In this document: one piece after another, positions 1-18,015 of the stretch
Layout: the number at the start of each line of letters is the position of its first letter
Position numbering within the stretch: the first letter of the stretch is position 1
Assembly: GCA_021795275.1 (NCBI GenBank)
Contig: JAJYPO010000022.1
Coordinates: forward strand, 1 to 18,219
Source of the DNA: Nitrospirota bacterium
GTDB taxonomy: Bacteria > Nitrospirota_A > Leptospirillia > Leptospirillales > Leptospirillaceae
DNA length: 18,219 nt
Direction: 5' to 3'
The notes under the pieces: model-generated
Databases searched by the model: none
What the model was told of the DNA's origin: nothing
What the model saw: the letters and a program-made list of their open reading frames with translations, nothing else
Position numbers and translations under genes: made by a program

Positions 1-512
1 TCTTTCCCTCCGTCCCGCCGGGCACGATCAACGACGACTTCGTGATCCCCATGCTGATCCTGGCCCGGGGGTTCCGCACCGTCTACGAGGACCGGGCCGT
101 GGCCTTCGAGCTCCACCTGGCGACCGCGGCGGGGGAGTTCCGGCGCCGGGTCCGCATCTCCCGGGGCAACTTCCAGCAGATCGGCCTCCTTCTGCCCGTC
201 CTGGGGAAGAAGGACCTCCGGGCCCTCTTCGTCTTTCTCTCCCACAAGGCGCTCCGGGCCTTCCAGCCCTTCTACCTGATGGGGCTCCTGCTCTCCTCGG
301 CCCTTCTGCCCGGACCCCTCTTCCGGGCCTTCTTCCTCCTTCAGGCGGCCTTCTACCTGGCGGGGCTCCTGGCCTGGCGCCTTCCCCGGCCCGGCCGCCT
401 CCTGGCGCTGCCCCTTTATTTCCTTTCGGGAAACGCAGCCATCGTCCTGGCCTTCGTCCGGCAGGTCCGGCAGGGGCGGAGCGCGGCCCGCCTCCAGTGG
501 GAGAAGTCCTGA
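1..512 (+). CDS. Membrane glycosyltransferase family 2, C-terminal fragment
   Basis: The 5' end is cut by the window; the reading frame is open from base 3 and gives 169 residues to the TGA at 510-512. The first visible residues (GTINDDFVIP) match the acidic acceptor-site motif of processive GT2 enzymes, and RRVRISRGNFQQ about 45 residues later fits the basic Q/R-rich motif that follows it in this family. The rest holds hydrophobic segments (MGLLLSSALL, AFFLLQAAFYLAGLLAW, LALPLYFLSGNAAIVLAFV), as in membrane-anchored sugar polymerases. It would act at the inner membrane, adding sugars from a nucleotide donor; the sugar cannot be told from this fragment. Its stop overlaps the start of the next gene, a polysaccharide deacetylase, so the two are translationally coupled. 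GT2 plus deacetylase recalls poly-N-acetylglucosamine modules, but that is inference. Confidence 0.82.
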   Translation, partial: FPSVPPGTINDDFVIPMLILARGFRTVYEDRAVAFELHLATAAGEFRRRVRISRGNFQQIGLLLPVLGKKDLRALFVFLSHKALRAFQPFYLMGLLLSSALLPGPLFRAFFLLQAAFYLAGLLAWRLPRPGRLLALPLYFLSGNAAIVLAFVRQVRQGRSAARLQWEKS

Positions 513-1303
513 TGGAGGCTCTGGTGCTCATGTACCACCAGATCGTGCCGGACGGGGCCCCCGACGGCTGGGTGCCCGCCCCCCTGGCCGATCCCCGTTA
601 TGGGTTGACCCGCCTGGAGTTCGCCCGTCAGATGGCCCACCTCAGGCAGGAGGGCTACCGCATCCTCTCCCTCGAGGAGCTTCTCGCGCCTTGCCGTCCG
701 GCCTCCAATGGCGCCTCCGACGATCGGCCGGCCGTTGTCGTCACCTTCGACGACGGCTATGGGAGCGATCTTGCCCTGGCGATGCCCATCCTGGCGCACC
801 TCGGGATCCCCGCGACCTTCTTCGTCGCGACCGGCCACATCGGTGCCCCTGGGATGCTCTCCGAGGAAGATGTGGCCGAGCTCGCCGCCCGTCCCCTCTT
901 CCGGATCGGCGGCCACGGCGAATCCCACCGCTTCCTGTCGGAGCTTTCCGAATCCGAATGCCTGAGCGAGCTCGTCGCCTCTTGCGATCGGATCCGGAGA
1001 CTGACGGGGCAGGGGATGGCGGAGATGTCCGCCCCCGGCGGGCGCACCTCCCCGCGGGTCGCCGCCCTCGCCCGAGGAGCCGGTTTCCGGGCCCTGGCCA
1101 CCTCCCGGCCGGGGCTCCACCTCCCCGGAGCCGACCTCTTTTCCCTTCCCCGGCTTCCGATCCTGCGGCGCCACACCCTCCGGGACTTTTCCGCGCTCCT
1201 CGATCCCCGCTCCCTGACCCACCGGACCGACGGGTGGATCCGGATCGCCAAGCAGGCGTCCCGGTCCGCGCTCCGGATCCTCTCTCACAACAAAGGAGTC
1301 TAG
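512..1303 (+). CDS. Polysaccharide deacetylase (NodB/CE4 family)
   Basis: A 263-residue protein. I chose the ATG at 512 over an in-frame GTG at 497 because it overlaps the upstream TGA (TGATG) and has GGGAGAAG at a fitting distance. It opens with VLMYHQIVPDG, the usual start of this family. TFDDGYGSD carries the catalytic base and metal Asp pair (D80, D81) and HGESH gives the HxxxH metal ligands (H135, H139). A Pro-Gly-Gly segment (SAPGGRTSP) fits the substrate-groove motif 3. The family removes N-acetyl groups from amino sugars in polysaccharides. I see no signal peptide, so location is unclear; the enzyme could act on the cytoplasmic side or be tethered by partners. PEP-CTERM EPS loci often carry a deacetylase of this family, which suits the context. 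Confidence 0.88.
   Translation: MEALVLMYHQIVPDGAPDGWVPAPLADPRYGLTRLEFARQMAHLRQEGYRILSLEELLAPCRPASNGASDDRPAVVVTFDDGYGSDLALAMPILAHLGIPATFFVATGHIGAPGMLSEEDVAELAARPLFRIGGHGESHRFLSELSESECLSELVASCDRIRRLTGQGMAEMSAPGGRTSPRVAALARGAGFRALATSRPGLHLPGADLFSLPRLPILRRHTLRDFSALLDPRSLTHRTDGWIRIAKQASRSALRILSHNKGV
1292..1298 (+). promoter_or_regulatory. Ribosome binding site of the AP-fold gene
   Basis: AAAGGAG lies inside the last codons of the deacetylase gene, 8 bases before the ATG at 1307. The stop TAG (1301-1303) and the next ATG are only 3 bases apart, which supports one transcript and fixes the start. Confidence 0.7.
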
Positions 1304-1306
1304 GCC

Positions 1307-2797
1307 ATGGCGTCCCGGATCGTCCTTCTGGGTCTCGGCGGTCTTTCCCTGGAGCTTCTGGATCCCCTGATCCACCACGGCTGGCTACCGAATCTCGAAT
1401 ACCTTCTGGGGCGGGGGGTGGTCGGAACGCTCTCCTCAGACATCCCCCCCTTCGCGGCGGCCGAATGGGCGAGCCTCCTGACCGGCCAGGGGCCGGGCAC
1501 GACCGGATTTCTCGAGGGGAGCCGGAAGACCCCCGGTTCCTACTTTCCCGAGGTGGCGAACCTCGAAGCCCTGGCCCGGCGGGCCCCCCTTTCCTTCCTG
1601 GGACGCACCGCGCCCGAGACGGTCCTGGTCGGAGTGCCCCTCCCGGCCGCGCCCGGACCCCCGCCTCCGGAGGACGGAATCCAGGTTCTTCGATGGGACG
1701 AAGGCCGCCTGACCGTTCGATCCCTTCCGCTCCCCGTCGTCGATGAGGGAGCCCGGGGGGCCGAAGCGAAGGAGGAGCGCCCGGAAGACTTTCTCGAGAA
1801 GGCGATCCGGCGCATGATCGCCCTTTCCGTCTCGATCGCCCGGATGGTCCGCTCGTCGGAACACCCGATCATCGCCGTCCATTTTGCGGGCCTCGACCGG
1901 ATCCTCTCACGCTTTCACAAGGACATCGTCGCCGCCCTTCTGGGCCGGAGCATAAGGGGTCTCGACGCCTTGCTCCGCCAGTTCCTCCGGGTCTTCGACG
2001 ACGCGGTGGGACCGGTTCTCGACCTCTCCCGCAAAGACGGAACCTTTGTCGTCCTGTTCAGTCCGCACGGGTATGCGCCCCTCGACCGGGTGATGAACCT
2101 GAACGCCTTCCTGCTCTCCCGGGGCTATCTTGCGCTCCGGCGGGAGGAAGGTCGGGAGGTTCTCCTTCGGGAGGTGGCCGCGCCGGTACTCCGGTCGATG
2201 AAGATCGAGCGGGGACGCGTGAAACGGATCCTGAGCCGGCCCGGGCTTTCGGAGGCGGTGGACCGCGCGGGGTCGCTCTTCAGCTCCGAGATCGGGCTCT
2301 TCGACTGGGGGCGGACCCGGGCCTTCGCGCTGACCCGCACCGGGATCACCCTCAATGTGCGGGGGGTGGAGTCGGCCGGAGCGGTCAATCCGGGTCCGGA
2401 GGAACGCGCCCTGGGGGAGGAGATCCGTCACGCCCTGCGTTCCCTGATCGACCTCGGCACCGGGAAGTTCCCTGTCCGGGAGGTTCTCTGGCGGGAGGAG
2501 CTCTTCTCCGGTCCGGGGCTCTCCGAACTCCCCCATCTCGTGGTCCGGGACTGGGATCCGACCTACATCCTGGAAGACTGGCGGAAGGTCGCCCCGTCAG
2601 AGGAAATCTTTTCCGACCCCGCCCGTCGGACCGGCACTCCCCGAAGCCCAGGGTTCTACTGCTTTTTCGGAGCCAGGCTTCCCGACCGGCTCCGGCCCCC
2701 CCTTTCCCGGACCCTCGGAGAGATCTCCTGTGCGATCGCCCTCCTCCTCGACGACAAAGACCATTCCTTTCCCGTCAAGGCCCCTCAAGGCTCATGA
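1307..2797 (+). CDS. Alkaline-phosphatase-superfamily protein, probable pseudoenzyme
   Basis: A 496-residue soluble protein resembling the type I phosphodiesterase/nucleotide pyrophosphatase branch of the alkaline phosphatase fold. Family landmarks are visible: IVLLGLGG at the N terminus, LPNLEYLLGRGVVGTLSSDIPP, W54..LLTG, a LDR segment, FSPHG followed by MNLNAFLLSRGYL, and a late TGTPRSPGFY segment. At each landmark the catalytic or metal-binding residue is replaced: GLDG is GLGG (G11 for Asp), the PPxT nucleophile is A50, SDHG is SPHG (P253 for Asp), and the late GTH is GTP (P445 for His). The fold looks intact and the frame is open, so this is better read as a non-catalytic binding or scaffold protein than a broken gene. 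No signal peptide is apparent. It follows the deacetylase by 3 bases and precedes the sigma-54 promoter of the EPS operon. Exact role unknown. Confidence 0.72.
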   Translation: MASRIVLLGLGGLSLELLDPLIHHGWLPNLEYLLGRGVVGTLSSDIPPFAAAEWASLLTGQGPGTTGFLEGSRKTPGSYFPEVANLEALARRAPLSFLGRTAPETVLVGVPLPAAPGPPPPEDGIQVLRWDEGRLTVRSLPLPVVDEGARGAEAKEERPEDFLEKAIRRMIALSVSIARMVRSSEHPIIAVHFAGLDRILSRFHKDIVAALLGRSIRGLDALLRQFLRVFDDAVGPVLDLSRKDGTFVVLFSPHGYAPLDRVMNLNAFLLSRGYLALRREEGREVLLREVAAPVLRSMKIERGRVKRILSRPGLSEAVDRAGSLFSSEIGLFDWGRTRAFALTRTGITLNVRGVESAGAVNPGPEERALGEEIRHALRSLIDLGTGKFPVREVLWREELFSGPGLSELPHLVVRDWDPTYILEDWRKVAPSEEIFSDPARRTGTPRSPGFYCFFGARLPDRLRPPLSRTLGEISCAIALLLDDKDHSFPVKAPQGS

Positions 2798-2802
2798 ACT
2801 TT

Positions 2803-2818
2803 TGGCAAGAATCTTGCT
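2803..2818 (+). promoter_or_regulatory. Sigma-54 (-24/-12) promoter of the EPS operon
   Basis: TGGCAAGAATCTTGCT matches the sigma-54 consensus TGGCACGNNNNTTGCW at every fixed position except one (A for C), with the obligatory GG-N10-GC spacing. The expected start is near 2829, giving a leader of about 47 bases before the ATG at 2876. It sits in the only gap between the AP-fold gene and the export gene. Sigma-54 promoters need an AAA+ activator, and such an activator (PrsR) is encoded downstream at 11629. Confidence 0.82.
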
Positions 2819-2875
2819 TTTCAATTGACAACGCTTTGTGATCGATCGACCCCACTCCCAACCAGCGAGGGATGC

Positions 2876-3724
2876 ATGACGCGCGACAGGTTTTGTCATT
2901 TCCGGATCCCGGTTCTCGTTCTTCTCTCCGTCCTCTTTTTCTCGTTCGCGGCCGGACCGTCCCTGGCCCGGGCGGCGGGGCTCTACCGCATCGGGGTGGC
3001 CGATTCGCTCCTCGTGAACGTCTGGGAGGAGCCCAAGCTGAACGGGGCTTACGAGGTCCTGCCCGACGGGACGATCACCATGCCGCTCGCCGGTACCCTC
3101 CGGGCGGAGGGCTACACCGGTCCCGAGCTCGCCCGGCGGATCGCCAACCGACTCTCGGCCGTCTTCCGCAAGCGCCCCGAGGTGACGGTCACGGTCAGGG
3201 GAATGGGGAACAACTTCTTCTACATCTCCGGGGCGGTTGGTCGAGCGGGACCTGTGGCCTTCACGCACAACATCCGGCTCCTGCAGGCGATCATCCTGGC
3301 GGGAGGGCCGACGATCGCGGCCGACGAGGACCATGTGGTCCTGATCCGCGACGACCGCCCCCGGACCTTCTCGATCGAAAAGCTCGACCAGGGGAAGGAT
3401 CTTTCCAACAACATCCGGATCTATCCCCAGGACATCATCATCGTTCCCCTGAAGACCGACCAGATCTACCTGATGGGAGAGGTGGCCGCCCCCGGGGCCT
3501 ACTACTACAACAAGGGGATGACGGTGATGCAGGCCCTGATCCAGGCCCACGGCTGGACCCAGTTCGCCTCGACCGGCTCTGTCCGAATCATTCGAAAGCA
3601 GAAGGACGGGACCAAGAAAATCGTCCACATCGATATCGACCACATCCAGGATGAAAAGAAAACCGAACCGAAGGAATATCTCCATCCCGGGGACCTGATC
3701 TACGTGCCCCAGCGGATGTTCTGA
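2876..3724 (+). CDS. Polysaccharide export protein (Wza-like, SLBB domains)
   Basis: A 282-residue protein. An upstream in-frame TTG at 2825 lies at the predicted transcription start, so I take the ATG at 2876, with GAGGG 4 bases upstream. Residues about 10-32 form a signal peptide ending near SLARA/AGLY; there is no lipobox Cys, unlike classical Wza. Next comes the Poly_export domain (YRIGVADSLLVNVWEEPKLNG, VLPDGTITMPLAGTLRAEG), then two SLBB-type repeats, the first around FYISGAVGRAGPVAF and the second around IYLMGEVAAPGAYYYNKG. It ends in DLIYVPQRMF, a usual C terminus in exosortase-associated export proteins, and is shorter than full-length Wza. The family forms the outer-membrane or periplasmic conduit for EPS, working with the Wzz-type protein encoded two genes downstream. 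Confidence 0.9.
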   Translation: MTRDRFCHFRIPVLVLLSVLFFSFAAGPSLARAAGLYRIGVADSLLVNVWEEPKLNGAYEVLPDGTITMPLAGTLRAEGYTGPELARRIANRLSAVFRKRPEVTVTVRGMGNNFFYISGAVGRAGPVAFTHNIRLLQAIILAGGPTIAADEDHVVLIRDDRPRTFSIEKLDQGKDLSNNIRIYPQDIIIVPLKTDQIYLMGEVAAPGAYYYNKGMTVMQALIQAHGWTQFASTGSVRIIRKQKDGTKKIVHIDIDHIQDEKKTEPKEYLHPGDLIYVPQRMF

Positions 3725-3760: not shown

Positions 3761-5101
3761 ATGATCCGCTTCTTCAACCACTATATCTCGATCGGGGTCC
3801 TGGCGGTGCTGGTAGGGGATCTGGCCTTCGCCGCCCTGGCCATGGGGGGCCTGTCGCTCCTCTCCGGGTCCTTTCCCGCACTGGCCCCGCTCCACCCCGT
3901 CACGACGGGGCTCGCGTGGAGCCTGGCGATGGCCTTCCTCTTCTTCCAGGGCGGGCTCTACGATGCGGCGAGCTTCGAGGTCGACCGGCGCAACATGATC
4001 CGGCTCCTCTCCGCCTTCGTCCTCCTGGGGGGGCTGGGGGTTCTCGTCCTGAAGGCCGTTCCGGCGGTCCGGCTCGGCTGGCGGGGAGAATTGGCTCTCA
4101 CGGGTCTGACCCTCGCCCTGGTGGGCTTCTGGCGCTGGGTCCTCGTCCTCAGGCTTCCGATCCACCAATGGAAGCGGTCGACCCTCATCCTGGGCACGGG
4201 CCAGATCTCCCGGATCTTCGAGGAGCTGAACCGGTACCGCCACAACATCCGGATCCAGGCGGTGGTGGACGCCCAGAAGATCAAGGAGATGAATCTCGCG
4301 CGGTACGCCCTGGAGAACAAGATCCACTCCATCGTAATCTCCCTCAAGGACCGCCGGGGCACTCTTCCCATCCACGAGATCCTGGAATGCAAGATGAACG
4401 GGATCGAGGTGATGGAGTGGCCGACCTTCTATGAAAAGAACATGAACAAGATCGACATCATGAACGTGAACCCGAGCCACCTGGTCCTGGGGGACGGCTT
4501 CCAGCGTCACCGCATCACCATCGTGGTCAAGGGGGTCATGGACCGGGTTCTGGCATTGGCGGGGCTCCTGCTCTTCGCCCCCATAGGGGCCGTGATCGCT
4601 CTCGCGATCCGTCTGAACAGCCCCGGTCCGGTCTTCTACAGCCAGGAGCGGGTGGGTCTGAACGGCAAGACCTTCCGGATCCTCAAGTTTCGCTCCATGG
4701 TGACCGATGCGGAAAAGAACAGGGCGCCCCAGTGGGCCTCCGAGCAGGATCCCCGGATCACGAAGGTCGGACGCTTTCTGAGAAAGACCCGTCTCGACGA
4801 GGTGCCCCAGCTCATCAACATCCTGAAGGGGGAGATGAGCTTCATCGGGCCCCGTCCGGAACGCCCCTATTTCGTGGAGGAACTCGAGAAGTGCATCCCC
4901 TTCTACGGCCTCCGGCACGTCACCAAGCCGGGGCTCTCCGGCTGGGCCCAGATCCGCTACCGGTACGGGGCCACGGTGGAGGACGCGGTCAAGAAACTGG
5001 AGTACGATCTCTACTACATCAAGAACCTCTCCATCTTCCTGGACCTCATGATCTTCATGGAGACGATCCAGGTGATCCTCTTCGGCAAGGGAAGCCGGTA
5101 A
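3761..5101 (+). CDS. Undecaprenyl-phosphate sugar phosphotransferase (exosortase-EPS type)
   Basis: A 446-residue initiating transferase. The ATG at 3761 has AAGGA 8 bases upstream. The N-terminal third has about four membrane segments and begins MIRFFNHYIS, typical of the PEP-CTERM-locus sugar transferase family (TIGR03013-like). A Rossmann-like middle (STLILGTGQISRIFEELNRY) follows, then from about residue 259 a bacterial sugar transferase domain: PGPVFYSQERVGLNGKTF, KFRSM, RKTRLDEVPQLINILKGEMS, GPRPERPYF, KPGLSGWAQIRYRYG. The key Asp-Glu and Arg residues of that domain are present. It moves a sugar-1-phosphate, probably glucose, from a UDP-sugar to undecaprenyl phosphate at the inner membrane, starting the repeat unit. 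GalU, encoded downstream, would supply UDP-glucose. Confidence 0.93.
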   Translation: MIRFFNHYISIGVLAVLVGDLAFAALAMGGLSLLSGSFPALAPLHPVTTGLAWSLAMAFLFFQGGLYDAASFEVDRRNMIRLLSAFVLLGGLGVLVLKAVPAVRLGWRGELALTGLTLALVGFWRWVLVLRLPIHQWKRSTLILGTGQISRIFEELNRYRHNIRIQAVVDAQKIKEMNLARYALENKIHSIVISLKDRRGTLPIHEILECKMNGIEVMEWPTFYEKNMNKIDIMNVNPSHLVLGDGFQRHRITIVVKGVMDRVLALAGLLLFAPIGAVIALAIRLNSPGPVFYSQERVGLNGKTFRILKFRSMVTDAEKNRAPQWASEQDPRITKVGRFLRKTRLDEVPQLINILKGEMSFIGPRPERPYFVEELEKCIPFYGLRHVTKPGLSGWAQIRYRYGATVEDAVKKLEYDLYYIKNLSIFLDLMIFMETIQVILFGKGSR

Positions 5102-5114
5102 CCCAAGGAGATCC

Positions 5115-7073
5115 ATGCAGTCCCTCGACTTAAAGACACTTCTCTCCCTTCTCTGGCTGTCCGTCCGGCGCTACAAGATCCTGGCGGTCCTGACGTTCTT
5201 TCTGATCCTGACCCCGGCCGTGCTGGTCGGGATGACCAAGAAGCCGGTCTACGTCGCCAAGGCGACGGTCCTGATCAAGGAGAACAACTACGCCTCCTCC
5301 TCCCTGGGCAACCACCTTCACACGCCCCGGAGCCTGGGGATCCAGTTCGCGATCCTGAAGAGCCAGTACCTGGCGGGACGGGTGGTGGACAACCTCCCCA
5401 AGGACACCCTTCGGGACCTCGAGGAGCACGCCGAGTACAACGATTTCCAGGGCCGGCTCATCAACCTGATCCGGACCACCCTCGGCAAGTCCCCGATCGT
5501 GATCGATCCCAAGGAACGGGCGGCGATGGAGCTCCGGAACGCCCGGATGAGTTTCAAGGGGGTCGGCGGAGGGGGCATCATCGAGATCGACGGCGAATCG
5601 GTCGATCCCAAAGTCGCGCTGTCCCTGGTGAACGCCTACATCGACACCTTCAAGGAGATCTCGAGCCATTTCGCCCTGGAGCAGCAGGCCGACCTCGACA
5701 AGAGCCTCTCGCTCCAGATCCTGAACGCCCGGAGCCTCTTGAAGAAGAGCGAGGAGGATCTCCTCGACTACCAGAAGCGGACCCAGAAGCAAAGCGGGAA
5801 GAAGCACCGTCCGGTGGACATCTCCTCCTATCTTTCCCAGGAGTCGGGGATGCTCTCTGCCCTTCGGACCCGGAAGGCCGAGCTTCTGCTTACCGAGACC
5901 GAATCCCACCCCGATGTGGTGGCCGTGACCCAGGAGATCCATGAACTCGAGCGCAAGGTCGGAACCCTTCACGCGATGTCGGGGACGGACGGCCAGGCCG
6001 ACGTCTCGGGCTCCGCCTGGGAGAACTTCCTTGAATCCAACATCCGGATGGACAAGGGGCTTCTGGCCGACCTCGAGCAGGAGCGCTCCTCGGCCCGGAT
6101 CACCGCCGACTCGAACCTCGAGAACCTGATCGTGATCGACCCGGCCCTCCGGCCCACCCGGCCCGAGATGGCCAAGGGGCTCAAGATCGGGATCATGGGG
6201 GTGGTCGGAGGGATGGGAGGTGCGGTGATGGTCCCCTTCCTCCTCGTCTTCTTCCGGCGCCCGGTGCAGGGGGAGTCCCACATCAAGAACCTCTCGGGCC
6301 TTCCCAACTTCGCTAATGTCCCCCGGGTGCCGCCCCGCCACGTTCCGGAGAAGAACGGCGACCGGATCCCCCGGGTGGACCAGAAGGCGGACGTGGAATC
6401 GGTCTGGATCTTCCAGAAGGAGTTCGAGTCGATGTTCTTCCGACTGAAGAAGCTCTTCAAGCACCAGAACGGCCACGTCCTCCTGGTGACCAGCGCCGGT
6501 CCCGACGAGGGCAAGAGCATGACTTCGCTCAACTTGGCACTCACCATGGCCCGCTTCGGCAACCGCGTCATCGTGGTGGACGCCGACACCATCCGGGGTC
6601 GCCTCCAGCAGAGCCTTCGGGCCTGGAACAGCTTCTCGGCCGACGTCTTCCTCCCCAAGGGGGACGGCGGGGCCCCCCCCCGTCCGATCGACTGGAGCGA
6701 GGGGCACATCGCCGTCGTGACCCTTCCGAAGGAGGGACCCTCCTTCTGGTCGGAGCACCCCGAGGCCGAACTTTCGAAATGGTTCGAGATCCTCCGCTTC
6801 CAGAGCGACTTCGTGGTCATCGATTCGGCGCCGGTCCTGGCCTCGACCGACCTCCTGGGGCTCTCCGCCTTCATCGACGGGGTCCTGGTGGTCGCCCGGA
6901 ACAGCCTCACCCGGGAGAAGGATTTCCTCCGGACGGGAGGGATTCTGACCGAGCATAATTTCGAAATCATGGGGACGGTGCTGAACGACTCGAAATCTCC
7001 CCACATCCAGTACTCCTACGGCTACACCCCCGACAAGGGCGGGGAGAAAAAGAACGCGCGGAAGGCGGGATGA
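5115..7073 (+). CDS. Wzz chain-length determinant fused to a tyrosine-kinase-like ATPase
   Basis: A 652-residue polysaccharide co-polymerase. AAGGAG sits 4 bases before the ATG. Residues about 20-42 are the first membrane helix; the periplasmic part has coiled-coil stretches (about 190-240) and ends in the Pro-rich PALRPTRPEMAKG before the second helix (about 357-379). The cytoplasmic part is a BY-kinase-like domain: Walker A SAGPDEGKSMT (K467), Walker A' VIVVDAD, Walker B FVVIDSAP. It differs from classical BY-kinases: the stretch between A' and B lacks the usual PPNPxELL segment, and the tail has only a small Tyr group (QYSYGYT) rather than a long Tyr cluster. It probably controls EPS chain length and couples to the Wza-like protein; kinase activity is uncertain. 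In many exosortase loci the two halves are separate genes. Its end overlaps the ABC gene by 4 bases (ATGA). Confidence 0.87.
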   Translation: MQSLDLKTLLSLLWLSVRRYKILAVLTFFLILTPAVLVGMTKKPVYVAKATVLIKENNYASSSLGNHLHTPRSLGIQFAILKSQYLAGRVVDNLPKDTLRDLEEHAEYNDFQGRLINLIRTTLGKSPIVIDPKERAAMELRNARMSFKGVGGGGIIEIDGESVDPKVALSLVNAYIDTFKEISSHFALEQQADLDKSLSLQILNARSLLKKSEEDLLDYQKRTQKQSGKKHRPVDISSYLSQESGMLSALRTRKAELLLTETESHPDVVAVTQEIHELERKVGTLHAMSGTDGQADVSGSAWENFLESNIRMDKGLLADLEQERSSARITADSNLENLIVIDPALRPTRPEMAKGLKIGIMGVVGGMGGAVMVPFLLVFFRRPVQGESHIKNLSGLPNFANVPRVPPRHVPEKNGDRIPRVDQKADVESVWIFQKEFESMFFRLKKLFKHQNGHVLLVTSAGPDEGKSMTSLNLALTMARFGNRVIVVDADTIRGRLQQSLRAWNSFSADVFLPKGDGGAPPRPIDWSEGHIAVVTLPKEGPSFWSEHPEAELSKWFEILRFQSDFVVIDSAPVLASTDLLGLSAFIDGVLVVARNSLTREKDFLRTGGILTEHNFEIMGTVLNDSKSPHIQYSYGYTPDKGGEKKNARKAG

Positions 7074-8914
7074 GCGCCGGCGCCCCCTTCCGCCGGGTCT
7101 ATGCCCTTCTTTCCCCCGCGCTTCGAAAGCGGCTCTGGATCCTCGGGCTCCTGGTCCTCCTGTCCGGGTTCTTCGAGATCGCGGGAGTGGCCTCTATCAT
7201 GCCCTTCATGGGAATGATCGTCGACCCCCGGCTCGCCCTCGAGAACCCCTGGATCGCCCAGATCCACCAGGTGTTCCCCCTGTCCCCCCGTCCGTTCATG
7301 ATCCTCCTGGGAGGGGCCGTTCTTCTGGTGCTCTTTCTTTCCAACCTGATCTCGGCCTTGACCGTCTGGAGCATCCTCCGCTTCTCCTTCGCCGCCGGCC
7401 GCGACCTCTCGAAGACGATGTTCGCCGTCTACCTGAACCATCCCTATCTTTTTTTCCTGAACCGCAATACCTCCGAGTTGGCCCAGAACACCCTCTTCGA
7501 GATCGGTCGGCTGGTCAACGGGATCCTGATCCCTTCCCTGACCATCGTCTCCCGGGTGGCGATCGCGCTTGCGATCCTGGGTCTTCTCCTGGCGGTGAAC
7601 CCCCCGATCGCCCTGGCGGCCGGAGCGGTCCTGGGGGGCGCCTACGGGGGTGTCTTCCTTCTCGTCCGCCGGACGCTCGCCCGGACGGGCCAGGAGATCT
7701 CGAAGGAAAACTCCAGGCGTTTCCAGACCGCCTACGAGACCTTTTCCGGGATCAAGGACATCAAGATCCTGGGCCGGGAAAAGGCCTTCTTCGACCTCTT
7801 CTCCGTTCCCGTCGAACGCTATGCCCAGCACCAGTCCCGGAGCCAGATGATCTCCCTTCTTCCGCGGTACGCCATGGAGACTCTGGCCTTCGGGGGGATC
7901 ATCGCCCTCGTGCTGGTCCTTCTCTCCCTGGGGGGTGGACTCTCGAAGACACTTCCCCTGATCTCGCTTTACGCCCTGGCCGGCTACCGGCTCATGCCGA
8001 CCCTCCAGCAGATCTTCGCCAACTGGTCCCAGATCCGCTTCAACCTCCCGGCCATCGACAAGGTGGTCGCCGACATCGAAGCCTTGCCGGACTCCGCTCA
8101 AAGGGATGCCGGAGACAGAAAATCGGCTCTTTCGGTTCCGGAGGTTCCGGGTCCTGTGGTCAGCCCCCTTCCTCTCCAGCGGGAGATCCGGTTCGAGGAG
8201 GTTTCCTTCGCCTATCCCTCCCAGGAGGACCCTGTCCTGGACCGCCTGTCCCTCTCCATTCCCGTCAACGCCTCGGTCGGGATCGTGGGCTCCACCGGAT
8301 CCGGCAAGACCACCACCCTCGACATCCTCCTGGGGCTCCTCGAGCCCACGGAGGGACGCCTCATGGTCGACGGGGTCCCCGTGACCGCGGAGAACCGTCG
8401 TCGGTGGCAGGCCAGCATCGGCTACGTCCCCCAGCAGATCATGCTGATCGACGACACCGTCAAAAAGAACATCGCCTTCGGGATTCCGGACGATCAGATC
8501 GATGAAACGAAGGTCGAGCGGGCGGCCCGGCTCGCCCACCTTCACGACTTCATCCTGACCGAGCTTCCAGAGGGGTACGAGACCGGGATCGGGGAGCGGG
8601 GGGTGCGCCTTTCCGGGGGACAGCGCCAGCGGATCGGGATCGCCCGGGCCCTCTACCACGATCCGGCCGTCCTGGTCCTGGACGAGGCGACGAGCGCCCT
8701 CGACAACCTGACCGAGACGGTCATCATGGAGGCGCTGTCGACCCTCTCGCGCCAGAAGACGATCCTCATGGTGGCCCACCGCCTTACCACCGTCCGGGAC
8801 TGCGAGTTTATCGTCGTAATGGATCGGGGGAGGGTCGCCGACATCGGGTCCTACGACGACTTGCTGGAGCGGAGCGACCTCTTCTCCTCCATGGTCCGCG
8901 GGGCCGTGCGGTGA
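7070..8914 (+). CDS. ABC exporter, PglK/MsbA-like (fused permease and ATPase)
   Basis: A 614-residue half-transporter starting at the ATGA overlap with the upstream gene. The N-terminal permease domain opens with LSGFFEIAGVASIMPFMGMI, closely resembling the start of PglK-type lipid-linked-oligosaccharide flippases, with further helices to about residue 320. A low-complexity linker (about 340-370) precedes the ATPase domain, which has every motif: Walker A GSTGSGKTTT (K413), Q-loop VPQQ, signature LSGGQ (514-518), Walker B VLVLDE (D538, E539) and the H-loop MVAHR. It should be active as a homodimer in the inner membrane. With no Wzx flippase or Wzy polymerase visible here, it is the best candidate to flip the lipid-linked EPS intermediate; the exact cargo is inference. 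Confidence 0.9.
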   Translation: MSAGAPFRRVYALLSPALRKRLWILGLLVLLSGFFEIAGVASIMPFMGMIVDPRLALENPWIAQIHQVFPLSPRPFMILLGGAVLLVLFLSNLISALTVWSILRFSFAAGRDLSKTMFAVYLNHPYLFFLNRNTSELAQNTLFEIGRLVNGILIPSLTIVSRVAIALAILGLLLAVNPPIALAAGAVLGGAYGGVFLLVRRTLARTGQEISKENSRRFQTAYETFSGIKDIKILGREKAFFDLFSVPVERYAQHQSRSQMISLLPRYAMETLAFGGIIALVLVLLSLGGGLSKTLPLISLYALAGYRLMPTLQQIFANWSQIRFNLPAIDKVVADIEALPDSAQRDAGDRKSALSVPEVPGPVVSPLPLQREIRFEEVSFAYPSQEDPVLDRLSLSIPVNASVGIVGSTGSGKTTTLDILLGLLEPTEGRLMVDGVPVTAENRRRWQASIGYVPQQIMLIDDTVKKNIAFGIPDDQIDETKVERAARLAHLHDFILTELPEGYETGIGERGVRLSGGQRQRIGIARALYHDPAVLVLDEATSALDNLTETVIMEALSTLSRQKTILMVAHRLTTVRDCEFIVVMDRGRVADIGSYDDLLERSDLFSSMVRGAVR

Positions 8915-9188: not shown

Positions 9189-10118
9189 ATGCATCCCATC
9201 GTCAGAAAGGCCGTCTTCCCCCTGGCGGGCCACGGCACCCGCTTCCTTCCCATGACCAAGAGCTCCCCCAAGGAGATGCTCCCGGTCATCGACAAGCCGG
9301 TGGTCCAGTACGTGGTGGAAGAGGCCGTCGCGGCGGGGATCGAACAGATGGTGATGATCACCGGCCGGGGAAAGCGGGCCATCGAGGACCATTTCGACAT
9401 CTCCTACGAACTCGAGGACGTGCTCAAGAAAAAGAACAAGACGGCGGTGCTCACCGAACTCCAGCGGATCACGAATCTGGCCCAGATCCTCTATCTCCGC
9501 CAGAAGGAGGCCCTGGGTCTGGGCCACGCCGTGCTCTGCGCGGAGCTCGCCGTGGGCGACGAGCCTTTCGCTGTGGCCCTGGGCGACGAAATCCTGGACG
9601 GCCCCAAGAGCGGTCTGGCCCAGCTCATGGAGGTCTACCGGGAGCTCGGGGCCCCGGTGATCGGGATGCAGCGGGTCCCGCTCTCCGAAGTGAGCCACTA
9701 CGGGATCGTCGCCGGCACCGAGGTGCGAAAGGGGCTCTATCGGGTGGACGGCCTCGTCGAGAAGCCCCGGATCGAGGACGCTCCCTCGGATTTTGCCATC
9801 ATCGGGCGCTATCTCCTGACCCCCGACATCTTCGGGATCCTGAAGATCCAGGCTCCCGGGGTGGGAGGGGAGATCCAGCTCACCGACGCCCTCAAGACCC
9901 TTGCAAAGACCCGCCCGGTCTACGCCCTCGAGATCCAGGGCGACCGCTTCGACACGGGGGACAAGATGGGGTTCCTGAAGGCGACGGTCCGTTTTGCACT
10001 GAACCGTCCGGATCTCTCCGGGGAGTTCTTCCATTTCCTCCGGGAGACCCTGGAGCGGGAGACGTCGCGGCAGACAGCCGGAGAGGGGGCCCATGCGGTC
10101 CGTCCTGTCCAGGGATAG
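9189..10118 (+). CDS. galU: UTP-glucose-1-phosphate uridylyltransferase
   Basis: A 309-residue enzyme, close to the usual GalU size, with a strong AAGGAGG 4 bases before the ATG. It makes UDP-glucose from UTP and glucose-1-phosphate in the cytoplasm. The nucleotide-binding loop is AVFPLAGHGTRFLPMTKSSPKEMLP (residues 8-32; the usual GLGTR is GHGTR here). Other family blocks are EALGLGHAV, HYGIVAG, VEKP, and GGEIQLTDAL near residue 225-235. It is the first gene of the exosortase operon and overlaps the next gene by 26 bases, tying precursor supply to the same sigma-54 control as protein sorting. Assignment is firm; UDP-sugar specificity is by family. Confidence 0.95.
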   Translation: MHPIVRKAVFPLAGHGTRFLPMTKSSPKEMLPVIDKPVVQYVVEEAVAAGIEQMVMITGRGKRAIEDHFDISYELEDVLKKKNKTAVLTELQRITNLAQILYLRQKEALGLGHAVLCAELAVGDEPFAVALGDEILDGPKSGLAQLMEVYRELGAPVIGMQRVPLSEVSHYGIVAGTEVRKGLYRVDGLVEKPRIEDAPSDFAIIGRYLLTPDIFGILKIQAPGVGGEIQLTDALKTLAKTRPVYALEIQGDRFDTGDKMGFLKATVRFALNRPDLSGEFFHFLRETLERETSRQTAGEGAHAVRPVQG

Positions 10119-10935
10119 GGGCGTCTTCTTTCTGGCGGTCGGCGCGGCGGTCCTGCTCTCCTGGGACAACTTCAGGAAGCTCGCGGACGACTGGATGACC
10201 CTCCCCGCCTATTCCCACGGGATCCTCGTCCCGCTCGTCTTCGTCCTCTTGGTCTACCTCGACCGGGACCGCCTCCCCGCCCCGAAGGACACGCCGTCCC
10301 CCTGGGGGCCGGTCCTGACGGCGGCGGGGGTCTTCTTTCTCGTAGTCGGGCGTCTCTCCGGCCTCTTCTACGTGGAGCAGCTCTCGATCCTTTTTCTGAT
10401 CTCGGGGCTGGTGGCGGGCTATTGGGGCACGGGGACCCTCAGGAGGCTCCGCTTCCCGATCCTTTATCTTCTCTTCATGATCCCGCTCCCCTACATCTTC
10501 TTCAACGCCCTGGCCGTTCCCCTCCAGGGGATCGCGGCGAAGGGGGCGGCGGACGTCCTTTCCGGGATCGGGATCCCGGTCTTCCGGGAAGGCAACATCA
10601 TCCACCTCCCCCACATCTCGCTCGGTGTGGTGAAGGCCTGCAGCGGGATCCAGTCCCTGGTCTCGCTTCTCGCGATTTCGGTCCTTGTGGCGAGGCTCTC
10701 CGGGACCGGAGGCATCCCGGGGGCCCTTCTGGCCCTTTCCGCCATCCCCGTGGCGGTCTTCGCCAACATGCTCCGGATCGCCGGGGTCGGGATCCTGGGC
10801 TCCTGGAACCCGAAGCTCGCCGAGGGGTTTTTCCATCTCTTCTCCGGGTGGGTGGTCTTCCTCTTCGCCTTCCTGGTCCTGATGGGGCTTGCCCGCCTCA
10901 TCCAGGCCTTCCGGAGGGTCCCCCATGTCGCGTAG
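10093..10935 (+). CDS. xrtA: Exosortase (probably XrtA type)
   Basis: A 280-residue integral membrane protein with about eight hydrophobic helices. The ATG at 10093 lies inside galU and has GAGAGG upstream. The three catalytic residues expected of exosortases are present: Cys183 in KACSGIQSL (usually EACSG), Arg228 in ANMLRI, and His248 in FFHLFSGW. Exosortases cleave the C-terminal sorting tail of secreted proteins (PEP-CTERM in XrtA systems) at the inner membrane, by analogy to sortase. The subtype is taken from the neighbours: prsR, prsT and the PEP-CTERM-type sugar transferase mark XrtA loci. EpsI follows as a separate gene, overlapping by 11 bases, where some families fuse it to the exosortase. 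No matching substrate gene is in the window. Confidence 0.93.
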   Translation: MRSVLSRDRGVFFLAVGAAVLLSWDNFRKLADDWMTLPAYSHGILVPLVFVLLVYLDRDRLPAPKDTPSPWGPVLTAAGVFFLVVGRLSGLFYVEQLSILFLISGLVAGYWGTGTLRRLRFPILYLLFMIPLPYIFFNALAVPLQGIAAKGAADVLSGIGIPVFREGNIIHLPHISLGVVKACSGIQSLVSLLAISVLVARLSGTGGIPGALLALSAIPVAVFANMLRIAGVGILGSWNPKLAEGFFHLFSGWVVFLFAFLVLMGLARLIQAFRRVPHVA

Positions 10936-11632
10936 GTCCCTCTACATGCTGCTCTCGGTCCTTGTGATGGGAGCGGGGTTCGCCTGGCTTCAAAAAGACG
11001 GCGCCCCCGCCCGGGTCCCCCCCCATCTTCCCCTCGCGGACTTTCCGGTGGCGGTGGGGAACTGGACCGGAACCCGGATTCCCGTCGACAGGAAGACCGC
11101 CGACATTTTGAACGCCGACGGAACCGCCTCGATCCTCTTCGAAAAACCTGGATCGCAGAGTCCGGCCATCCTCTTCTTCGGCGTCTACTACGACCGGCAG
11201 ACGCCGGAGAAGAACATCCACTCCCCGGAGAACTGCCTTCCCAGCTCCGGCTGGGCGGTCCTCTCCCGGCGGACCGTGGCCCTCGACCTCGTCCCGGGGA
11301 GCCCGCCGGTCCCGGCGAGCGTCGACCTCATCTCGAAGGGGCTCGAACGCCAGCTGGTCCTCTACTGGTACCAGGAGCGGGGACGGGCCTTCTCAAACGA
11401 GTATCTGGGGCGCTACTATATGATCCGGGACGCGCTCCTCATGCGCCGCACCGACGGGGCCCTGGTCCGGGTCTCCATGACGGTGACCGGGACCCCGGAG
11501 GAGGCCCTGGCCCGGGAGGTCCGCTTCCTGCGCTCCCTGACGCCGGTGCTGTCCCGCTACATTCCGGGCGGGACCCCGGAGGGGCCGACCGCCCGGATGT
11601 CCACGCCCACTTTTCAGGAGGCGCACCGTTGA
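10925..11632 (+). CDS. epsI: Exosortase-associated protein EpsI
   Basis: A 235-residue protein. I take the ATG at 10925, with GGAGGG 6 bases upstream, over an in-frame upstream start at 10889. One N-terminal membrane helix (SLYMLLSVLVMGAGFAWL) leads to a periplasmic domain. The EpsI signature HSPENCLPSSGW (H99, C104) is present, followed by LYWYQERGR, the N-E-Y-L-G-R-Y segment and DGALVRVS, all in family order. EpsI accompanies exosortases either as a C-terminal domain or as a neighbour; its biochemical role in EPS production is not settled. The conserved His and Cys suggest a thiol-dependent role, which is inference. Its stop TGA overlaps the TTG start of prsR. Confidence 0.92.
   Translation: MSRRSLYMLLSVLVMGAGFAWLQKDGAPARVPPHLPLADFPVAVGNWTGTRIPVDRKTADILNADGTASILFEKPGSQSPAILFFGVYYDRQTPEKNIHSPENCLPSSGWAVLSRRTVALDLVPGSPPVPASVDLISKGLERQLVLYWYQERGRAFSNEYLGRYYMIRDALLMRRTDGALVRVSMTVTGTPEEALAREVRFLRSLTPVLSRYIPGGTPEGPTARMSTPTFQEAHR
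11616..11621 (+). promoter_or_regulatory. Ribosome binding site that fixes the TTG start of prsR
   Basis: AGGAGG lies 7 bases before TTG 11629, which overlaps the epsI stop as TTGA. The next in-frame ATG would remove the first strand of the receiver domain, so TTG is the real start. Confidence 0.75.
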
Positions 11633-16433: not shown

Positions 16434-16462
16434 TTGTCTGAACTTCTCCCTGTTGCTAAAAT
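16434..16462 (+). promoter_or_regulatory. Sigma-70 promoter with extended -10
   Basis: TTGTCT (16434-16439) and TAAAAT (16457-16462) are 17 bases apart, and TGC directly precedes the -10, giving the TGN extended motif. The start would be near 16469, about 65 bases before the lipoprotein gene. It lies in the 232-base gap after prsT, in which I see no gene and no convincing terminator, and no sigma-54 site with correct spacing. Confidence 0.6.
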
Positions 16463-16533
16463 TTTCATCCAGGGGGCATTATAGCGAAGCCTTGGGGGAT
16501 TCCGGGAATGTCCGGGCCGGACGGGAGGGGATT

Positions 16534-18015
16534 GTGGACCGGATGGGGAAATGGCTTCGGGCAGTCCTTCTGCTATGCGTTTTTGGCGCCCTTCCCAACT
16601 GCGGCGGGGGAGGGGGTGGCGGGGGAGTCTCCTCCCCGCCGTTCGAGATGGCCTACGTCCTTGAGGAAAAAAACTCCGACTTTTCCGGCCAGATCGAATA
16701 TTTCCCCATGAATCCGGGGAACGGCTCCTTCTACCCCGAGACCGGAGCCGCTCCCGTCCCCACGGGAGGATCCGTTCCCATTTCGCTCCTGGCCGACCCC
16801 TCGAACACGAACTTCCTCTATGCCCTGAACAACAACAACACGACGATCGATGGAAGTACGGCCGGATCCGTTTCGGGCTTCTCCGCCGCCGGCTACCAGA
16901 AGAACATGAGCCCCGTCTCCACTCGTGTTTCTACCGGACCCGATCCGGTGAGCATGGCGATCGATCCGGGGGGCCGCTATCTGGCCGTGGCCGATCACGG
17001 GAACGGGAAAACCAACGGCGACGTGTCGCTGTTCACGATCTCCTCCGGAACGGTCGCGCCCTCCGGAACCTGGACCTCCTCCCAAACGTGCGGGAATCCC
17101 TATCGGGTCCTCTTCGCGCCCGGCGCCTCGGGAAGCGCAAGCGACACGGTGATCGTCGCCTGCTCCTCCCCCGAGATCTGGGGGAATACCTCCAATCCGG
17201 GAGTGGCGGTCTATGCCTGCACGATCGCGAATATCAGTAGTAGTAGTGTATGTAAAAATGTCCTATTTACGAGCTCTTTTAATCAATCTATCAATTCACG
17301 TTACTTTGCCCTCGTGAACTTCCTCTTCGTTCCCGGAACCTCCACGGCGGTCGGACCTGTTCTTTCGGGAACGACTTCAGGGTCTTCCCCCACCGCCTAT
17401 CTCCTGGTCTGCGATTTTTCCAATAACTCCTGTTCGACCCACCTGTCGACGATCGACAACACCTCTGGGTTCCTCCCCTCGGGGAACGTGGCCTTCTCGG
17501 GAAGCGGTTCCTCGGCGAGGCTCTACGTGGGGAACTACTATCCTAGTAGTAGTGGTTTCATTCCCGATTATTCGGAATTCTCCTCCTGTTCCTCATCCAC
17601 TTCTTCGTGGACATGCCATTCTCCTCTTAAGGTGAATTCCTCTTCGACCCCCGGTCCGATCTATTTCTATGCGACGGGAAGCACCCTCTATATCGCCGCG
17701 ACGCAGACCCCCATCAAGGGATCCTATACCACCACCGGGAACACATCCGGAGGAAGCAGCTCCAGCTCTGGAACCATCTACGCCTGCGCCCTTTCCAACA
17801 TCTCTTCATCCTCTGCTTCCTGTTCTTCGCAAACGACCGGGGGATGGCCCGTCGCCATCACCGTCGATCCCCAGACAGGCAACTATCTCTTCGTGCCGAC
17901 CCTCTCGGGAACGGTCGACCTGTATTCCGGAGCTTCCACAGGAAATCTTTCTCGCTTGACGGGTCCGGCGGTCGCATCGGGCTATCTTCCCCTCTCGGTG
18001 CTCGTCCTGCCGTGA
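16534..18015 (+). CDS. Secreted Ser/Cys-rich beta-propeller-like lipoprotein
   Basis: A 493-residue protein. I take GTG 16534, because GGGAGGGG ends 3 bases before it; ATG 16543 is the alternative, and the longer frame back to 16453 runs into the promoter. The N terminus is an export signal followed by C23 and eight Gly, typical of a lipoprotein tether, though the lipobox (ALPN-C) is imperfect. The body has propeller/lactonase-like blades: NFLYALNNNNTTIDGSTAGSV, DPVSMAIDPGGRYLAVADHG, VAITVDPQTGNYLFVPT. It also has repeated Cys-bounded Ser-rich loops, such as ACTIANISSSSVC and ACALSNISSSSASC; ten Cys follow C23, an even number that would suit disulfides. No enzyme activity is assigned. It has its own sigma-70-like promoter, so it may not share EPS control. 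Confidence 0.75.
   Translation: MDRMGKWLRAVLLLCVFGALPNCGGGGGGGGVSSPPFEMAYVLEEKNSDFSGQIEYFPMNPGNGSFYPETGAAPVPTGGSVPISLLADPSNTNFLYALNNNNTTIDGSTAGSVSGFSAAGYQKNMSPVSTRVSTGPDPVSMAIDPGGRYLAVADHGNGKTNGDVSLFTISSGTVAPSGTWTSSQTCGNPYRVLFAPGASGSASDTVIVACSSPEIWGNTSNPGVAVYACTIANISSSSVCKNVLFTSSFNQSINSRYFALVNFLFVPGTSTAVGPVLSGTTSGSSPTAYLLVCDFSNNSCSTHLSTIDNTSGFLPSGNVAFSGSGSSARLYVGNYYPSSSGFIPDYSEFSSCSSSTSSWTCHSPLKVNSSSTPGPIYFYATGSTLYIAATQTPIKGSYTTTGNTSGGSSSSSGTIYACALSNISSSSASCSSQTTGGWPVAITVDPQTGNYLFVPTLSGTVDLYSGASTGNLSRLTGPAVASGYLPLSVLVLP

Follow-up and report, generated by a model that had tools for sequence, protein, structure and literature searches.

The DNA examined here, 18,219 nucleotides of contig JAJYPO010000022.1 from a Nitrospirota bacterium (hereafter the window), carries an exopolysaccharide (EPS) locus in which a gene of the alkaline phosphatase (AP) superfamily lies between those for a polysaccharide deacetylase and a Wza-type export protein (Table 1). 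As regards classical AP chemistry, the encoded protein, termed pseudo-AP below, is very probably a pseudoenzyme, a reading put forward in an earlier note on this DNA and supported by losses common to a clade of related proteins.

The pseudo-AP reading frame and its catalytic positions

The frame begins with ATG, encodes 496 amino acids, and contains no internal stop, as the earlier note had stated of its 496 codons. The protein scores 51.2 bits against the PF01663 profile (cut-off 23), and an NCBIfam scan returned no family at E 0.01. Alignment with 20 Nitrospirota relatives and three further proteins (P0033–P0035) bears out the claim that the family landmarks follow one another in the expected order: GLGG stands for the family's GLDG, PPFAAAEW for PPxTxxAW, LDRILSRF for xDRxxHxF, SPHG for SDHG, and GTP..G for GxH..G. 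The residues that we take to be catalytic in the family are D11, T50, D197, H201, D253, H254, and H445. In the window protein these positions read G, A, D, S, P, H, and P, such that five of seven are replaced and D197 and H254 remain. The four substitutions listed previously (D11G, T50A, D253P, and H445P) are all present in the alignment; the list was incomplete, with a fifth change, H201S, overlooked. Of the six metal ligands (D, D, H, D, H, H) of an active type I phosphodiesterase, the window protein has D197 and H254 alone, and A50 occupies the place of the Thr/Ser nucleophile. If, as we presume, D11, D253, and H254 form one metal site and D197, H201, and H445 the other, a single ligand remains at each. 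Classical AP chemistry is very unlikely, therefore, given the missing nucleophile and the one ligand left per site. Misalignment of the landmarks was considered and rejected, as conserved framework residues stand on the flanks of every one.

An AlphaFold 2 (AF2) model of pseudo-AP (pLDDT 80.7, pTM 0.82) has the α/β fold of the AP superfamily, and fold matches cover most of the chain; several stretches are modeled with low confidence. The solved structures in the table of fold-match Z scores are 11–17% identical to the protein, and rows with Z within 1 count as ties, leaving the nearest single family unsettled. A sequence search of solved chains at E ≤ 1 gave phosphonoacetate hydrolase (3t02) as the sole match, at E 0.37. 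Pseudo-AP resembles the PF01663 family (phosphonoacetate hydrolase, Xac NPP, and the ENPP family) in its fold over most of the chain, its Pfam score, and its framework residues, but differs in the replaced canonical positions and in the clade-specific E53, T66, W395, and H410. The framework shared with all 22 canonical sequences compared includes G9, W54, D197, D231, S252, H254, W334, N350, and G358.

Table 1. Coordinates of the pseudo-AP gene, its diagnostic codons, and neighboring genes in the window
Feature	Position	Strand	Basis
AP-superfamily pseudoenzyme (very probable)	1307..2797	+	PF01663 match, residue table, AF2 model, fold matches
Codon 11, canonical Asp to Gly	1337..1339	+	alignment
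Codon 50, canonical nucleophile Thr to Ala	1454..1456	+	alignment
Codon 53, Glu in 31/31 clade members; Ala in 114/114 P0033 relatives and 19/20 Nitrospirota relatives	1463..1465	+	
Codon 197, canonical Asp kept	1895..1897	+	alignment
Codon 201, canonical His to Ser	1907..1909	+	alignment
Codons 253–254, canonical Asp-His to Pro-His	2063..2068	+	alignment
Codon 445, canonical His to Pro	2639..2641	+	alignment
Family 2 glycosyltransferase (GT2), C-terminal part (window starts inside gene)	42..512	+	PF13632 12.5 bits, below cut-off
Polysaccharide deacetylase (carbohydrate esterase family 4 (CE4)/NodB-type)	497..1303	+	PF01522 68.2 bits, cut-off 23.1
Wza-type polysaccharide export protein	2825..3724	+	PF02563 77 bits; TIGR03027 173.9 bits, cut-off 180
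Polyprenyl glycosylphosphotransferase (EpsB_2/WcaJ type)	3761..5101	+	TIGR03013 437.9 bits, cut-off 393.35
Wzc-type chain-length determinant, bacterial tyrosine kinase (BY-kinase)-like domain	5115..7073	+	PF02706 26.7 bits, cut-off 25.5
PglK/MsbA-like ATP-binding cassette (ABC) transporter, probable flippase	7070..8914	+	PF00005 and PF00664 above cut-off

Clade-wide losses and selection on the gene

A protein search at E ≤ 0.001 returned 34 proteins: P0002, identical to the query, 30 further members of its clade (P0003–P0032), and P0033–P0035. Their sources include a Nitrospirae metagenome-assembled genome (MAG; P0010), Leptospirillum ferriphilum (P0024), and a MAG called Leptospirales (P0031). 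Some are annotated as "alkaline phosphatase family protein" or "AlkP superfamily phosphohydrolase", names at odds with the sequence, which argues against that chemistry. The query, the 30 other clade proteins, and P0033–P0035 were aligned with 20 relatives from 11 Nitrospirota loci, chosen from search matches rather than at random (two of 22 hits were left out before alignment). D11, H201, and D253 are lost in all 31 clade sequences, and T50 and H445 in 30 each (P0009 and P0029 have Ser at position 50), answering in the affirmative the earlier question of whether the substitutions are common to orthologues. All 31 sequences retain D197 and H254. Of the seven canonical positions, five are missing from 29 members and four from the other two. 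The recurrence of the same losses across 31 sequences led to rejection of chance or sequencing error as their source.

The canonical set is complete in all 20 Nitrospirota relatives, with Thr as nucleophile in 17 and Ser in three. To obtain a base rate from a broader sample, we took 119 other proteins from the P0033 listing (the best of 2835 at E ≤ 1e-40) and left out five shorter than 480 amino acids. The resulting 114 are near kin of P0033, making the base rate no census of PF01663; 110 have the exact canonical set, two have Ser for Thr, and two show a gap at D11 only. A search with profile A2 for proteins bridging the clade and its canonical kin (E ≤ 1e-20, best 7997 candidates scored) gave 34 proteins and none additional. 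In a FastTree phylogeny of 73 sequences (including a sample of 19 from the 114), the clade is monophyletic with support 1.0 on a stem of 0.88, and the complementary node has support 0.861. A PF01663 search of the five genomes that bear clade members matched pseudoenzyme loci alone in three of them; the search is insensitive, missing known copies in G004, G017, and one of two in G014, and an active paralogue could escape it. The distant relative P0035 has V at the position of T50, H at D197, and L and I at D253/H254, and is possibly an independent AP-family pseudoenzyme.

The clade has also acquired residues of its own. S14, W26, E53, T66, R73, R367, G370, W395, H410, and F450 are invariant in all 31 members and occur in at most one of the 22 canonical sequences (P0035 left out). 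Against the 114 P0033 relatives, E53 stands for Ala (114), T66 for His (114), H410 for Asp (111), and W395 for Arg (102); R73 is less distinctive, with Arg or Lys there in 45. This pattern looks like re-specialization rather than erosion, and the clade-specific residues may meet in space.

The gene is under purifying selection. The reading frame is open in all seven copies read, the window included, and comparison of the window gene with five genomic copies gives ratios of nonsynonymous to synonymous divergence (dN/dS) of 0.24, 0.24, 0.25, 0.27, and 0.35. The same five comparisons give 0.32, 0.33, 0.32, 0.39, and 0.30 for the adjacent deacetylase and 0.16, 0.15, 0.14, 0.10, and 0.14 for Wza. 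Across the 21 pairs of seven copies the pseudo-AP values span 0.156 to 0.479, many of them rough owing to synonymous distances near or above 1. The view that the gene is kept by selection rather than decaying, already held in the earlier note, agrees with these ratios and with the losses common to the clade; the observation is real and stronger than had been stated. Pseudo-AP does diverge faster than Wza, WcaJ, and Wzc (57–71% versus 77–94% identity), as a decaying relic or functionless annotation artefact might. Such an origin is very improbable in light of the intact frames, the shared losses and new invariants of the 31 sequences, and dN/dS well below 1 and similar to that of the deacetylase, on which ground neutral decay was rejected.

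Gene neighborhood and canonical relatives

The assignment to an EPS locus made in the earlier note is upheld by an identical gene order (GT2, deacetylase, pseudo-AP, Wza) in all six loci compared, although the G017 deacetylase is partly unreadable and was not found at the search threshold, probably for that reason. WcaJ and Wzc genes come next in five of six, and the sixth contig ends before them. The comparison covered G001 and 60 relatives, with six clade copies in five genomes and weak matches alone in eight more; among 395 genomes of the phylum, strong matches are confined to the same five. The subclade P0029–P0032 lies outside this comparison. G014 has two EPS-locus copies (L045 = C39 and L049 = C34) with clearly different pseudo-APs (dN 0.262), either because the genome has two such loci or because the bin mixes two strains. 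In G020 an exporter was found and, at the thresholds used, neither deacetylase nor pseudo-AP on a short contig.

The GT2 is 72–85% identical in five loci, with a partial match in the sixth and a full-length gene in L001. The deacetylase gene overlaps the GT2 end by 16 nucleotides, and its product has intact TFDDGY and H-x3-H motifs, supplying the D-D and H-H pairs; its best NCBIfam match is PgaB (42.2 bits, cut-off 321.9). Three nucleotides separate its stop from the pseudo-AP ATG, with GGAG upstream, in keeping with the translational packing noted earlier. This spacing is 3–4 nucleotides in the window and five copies, and in G017 the two genes overlap by 4; for G007 and G017 the stop was taken in the deacetylase frame. 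The Wza-type start codon is uncertain; the frame as given begins with a TTG, and an ATG follows further downstream. The Wzc-type protein matches TIGR03007 and TIGR03018 below cut-off, and the best NCBIfam match of the ABC transporter is PglK (297.4 bits, cut-off 1000).

Further downstream an NCBIfam scan places an exosortase, EpsI, and a PrsT-like tetratricopeptide repeat (TPR) protein, and two other genes presumably encode GalU and a sigma-54-type response regulator, judging from their translations. The locus has the EpsB_2-type glycosyltransferase of XrtA/PEP-CTERM EPS loci, and the general exosortase and EpsI models score above cut-off (TIGR02602, 169.3 versus 105.55; TIGR02914, 114.8 versus 42.8). 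The XrtA-specific models all fall below theirs (TIGR03109, 189.4/208; TIGR03027, 173.9/180; TIGR02917, 296/312.2), making the locus XrtA-like rather than XrtA. The exosortase itself, in 10093–11632 with EpsI, is below every named-type cut-off displayed (XrtW, XrtD, XrtA, and others). After the TPR gene, 16453–18015 encodes a 520-residue Ser/Gly/Thr-rich protein with long Ser runs and, by eye, a lipoprotein-like start.

GT2 and deacetylase pairs are a feature of PgaB/PgaC and IcaA/IcaB. The window shares with these systems a GT2 adjoining a CE4-type deacetylase with PgaB as its best NCBIfam match, but differs in having a WcaJ/Wzc/ABC/Wza-type locus, an exosortase, and the added pseudo-AP. Two papers report on L. 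ferriphilum: in its type strain, PGA synthesis and export genes stand directly beside wza within a large cluster that is for the most part transcribed at very low levels (PMC5772234), and the species has PEP-CTERM exosortase genes (PMC5418355). The first of these fits the GT2-deacetylase-Wza neighborhood, the correspondence being by description rather than by mapping to the window locus. Among the literature matches listed, no title or abstract deals with a pseudo-AP in EPS loci.

Catalytic relatives occupy polysaccharide clusters as well. In a Pfam scan of three of the 11 canonical loci, all three had them in such a setting. L057 has three canonical relatives, which lie with one sulfatase-type gene at L057:7660–13931; a second sulfatase-type gene lies at 2334–3608, and the cluster also encodes an exporter, a flippase, a PIG-L deacetylase, and glycosyltransferases. 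L054 has one relative, whose gene overlaps that of a flippase in the vicinity of GT2s and an O-antigen ligase; the single relative in L053 adjoins a flippase and has an exporter close by. These proteins of other Nitrospirota, annotated as "alkaline phosphatase family" (e.g., L054:9091–10713 and L057:7660–9345), belong to the same family as pseudo-AP (23–40% identity in matched stretches with P0024 as query) and, in the three scanned loci, have flippases, exporters, or glycosyltransferases nearby, but differ in their complete canonical sets and in that none of the 11 loci matches the window deacetylase at E 1e-4. With catalytic relatives in polysaccharide clusters of all three scanned loci, a catalytic protein of such a cluster is the most likely ancestor of pseudo-AP. 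The earlier suggestion of a possible new EPS component does not extend to the family as such, whose canonical members already occur in these clusters. The selected, clade-wide loss beside canonical polysaccharide-cluster relatives provides an opening onto an AP-fold role without catalysis in polysaccharide assembly.

Possible functions of pseudo-AP

Pseudo-AP is probably a helper or sensor rather than a phosphate-cutting enzyme. Neither it nor the deacetylase has a signal peptide by eye, and its highest 19-residue hydropathy is 1.57; both proteins probably act in the cytoplasm, therefore, before flipping. A substrate-binding or regulatory partner role is plausible from the GT2/deacetylase adjacency, and we give about even chances to a non-catalytic AP-fold protein that acts as partner or gate of the GT2/deacetylase step. 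Two-metal phosphoryl chemistry would be impossible under the metal-site assignment assumed above, and the altered cleft (E53, T66, W395, and H410) or the surface would instead offer a binding site for a sugar, phosphorylated or lipid-linked, or for a partner protein. Pseudo-AP could then scaffold or gate the cytoplasmic step in which GT2 and deacetylase modify a lipid-linked repeat unit, a modification that would precede the ABC transporter and Wza export. Partner-type pseudoenzymes such as the dead myotubularins (named in PMC11314389) likewise keep a fold, have lost catalysis, and are thought to work through a partner; they differ in fold and pathway, and the partner of pseudo-AP is predicted only.

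Several observations weigh against this interpretation. Single canonical residues persist in some members (T50 in P0022 and H445 in P0032). G003 and G016 have exporter, Wzc, GT2, and deacetylase and no pseudo-AP profile match; the co-occurrence with the deacetylase raised in the earlier note therefore holds in that the two adjoin in six of six loci, and fails in the other direction. An obligate role as GT2/deacetylase partner is weakened accordingly, as the pair needs no pseudo-AP in general. The remaining points concern single residues. D197 and H254 are invariant even though the ligands they would have worked with have been lost, E53 and H410 are innovations fixed in every member, and residue 206, near the position of the former H201, is acidic throughout the 31 members (Asp in 26, Glu in five) and may be a replacement ligand. 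This pattern could represent a different active site. A re-tooled enzyme, carrying out a different reaction on a sugar phosphate with one metal or none through some of E53, D197, D/E206, H254, and H410, is nonetheless doubtful: D197 and H254 may be structural, given that their flanks are conserved as well, the only His residues present in at least 30 of 31 members are 254 and 410, and no Cys reaches that level. No conserved His near position 201 was found in the 31-sequence clade alignment. As to the genes that follow the deacetylase in the two genomes without pseudo-AP, that of G003 (L065:14765–16764) encodes a 741-residue histidine-kinase-like protein and that of G016 (L066:14130–16069) a 685-residue protein, both read from translation.

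The absence of pseudo-AP from two genomes that retain the pair would also suit a ligand sensor that works without the deacetylase and signals precursor availability to the export machinery; its ligand would be a nucleotide sugar, a polyprenyl-phosphate sugar, or a cyclic nucleotide. R73 and K74, both invariant in the clade, lie 23–24 residues past the nucleophile position, and T79 and N100 of PafA, named in the title of 5too, are 21 residues apart; the PafA Asn is one that we take to function in anion binding. An anion pocket around R73/K74 is conceivable by this analogy, but basic residues at these positions also occur outside the clade, position 74 being Arg in 85 of the 114 P0033 relatives. 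With this and the low-confidence stretches of the model, a sensor of this kind seems unlikely.

The partner or gate reading can be extended, tentatively, by taking the clade as the first of a new family of AP-fold pseudo-phosphodiesterases. In it a metal-free pocket (E53, R73/K74, D197, H254, and H410), derived from the two-metal site, would read a phosphorylated or lipid-linked sugar and gate the cytoplasmic GT2/deacetylase step of EPS assembly. The hosts are iron-oxidizing Leptospirillum-type bacteria, whose biofilms are relevant to bioleaching and acid mine drainage.
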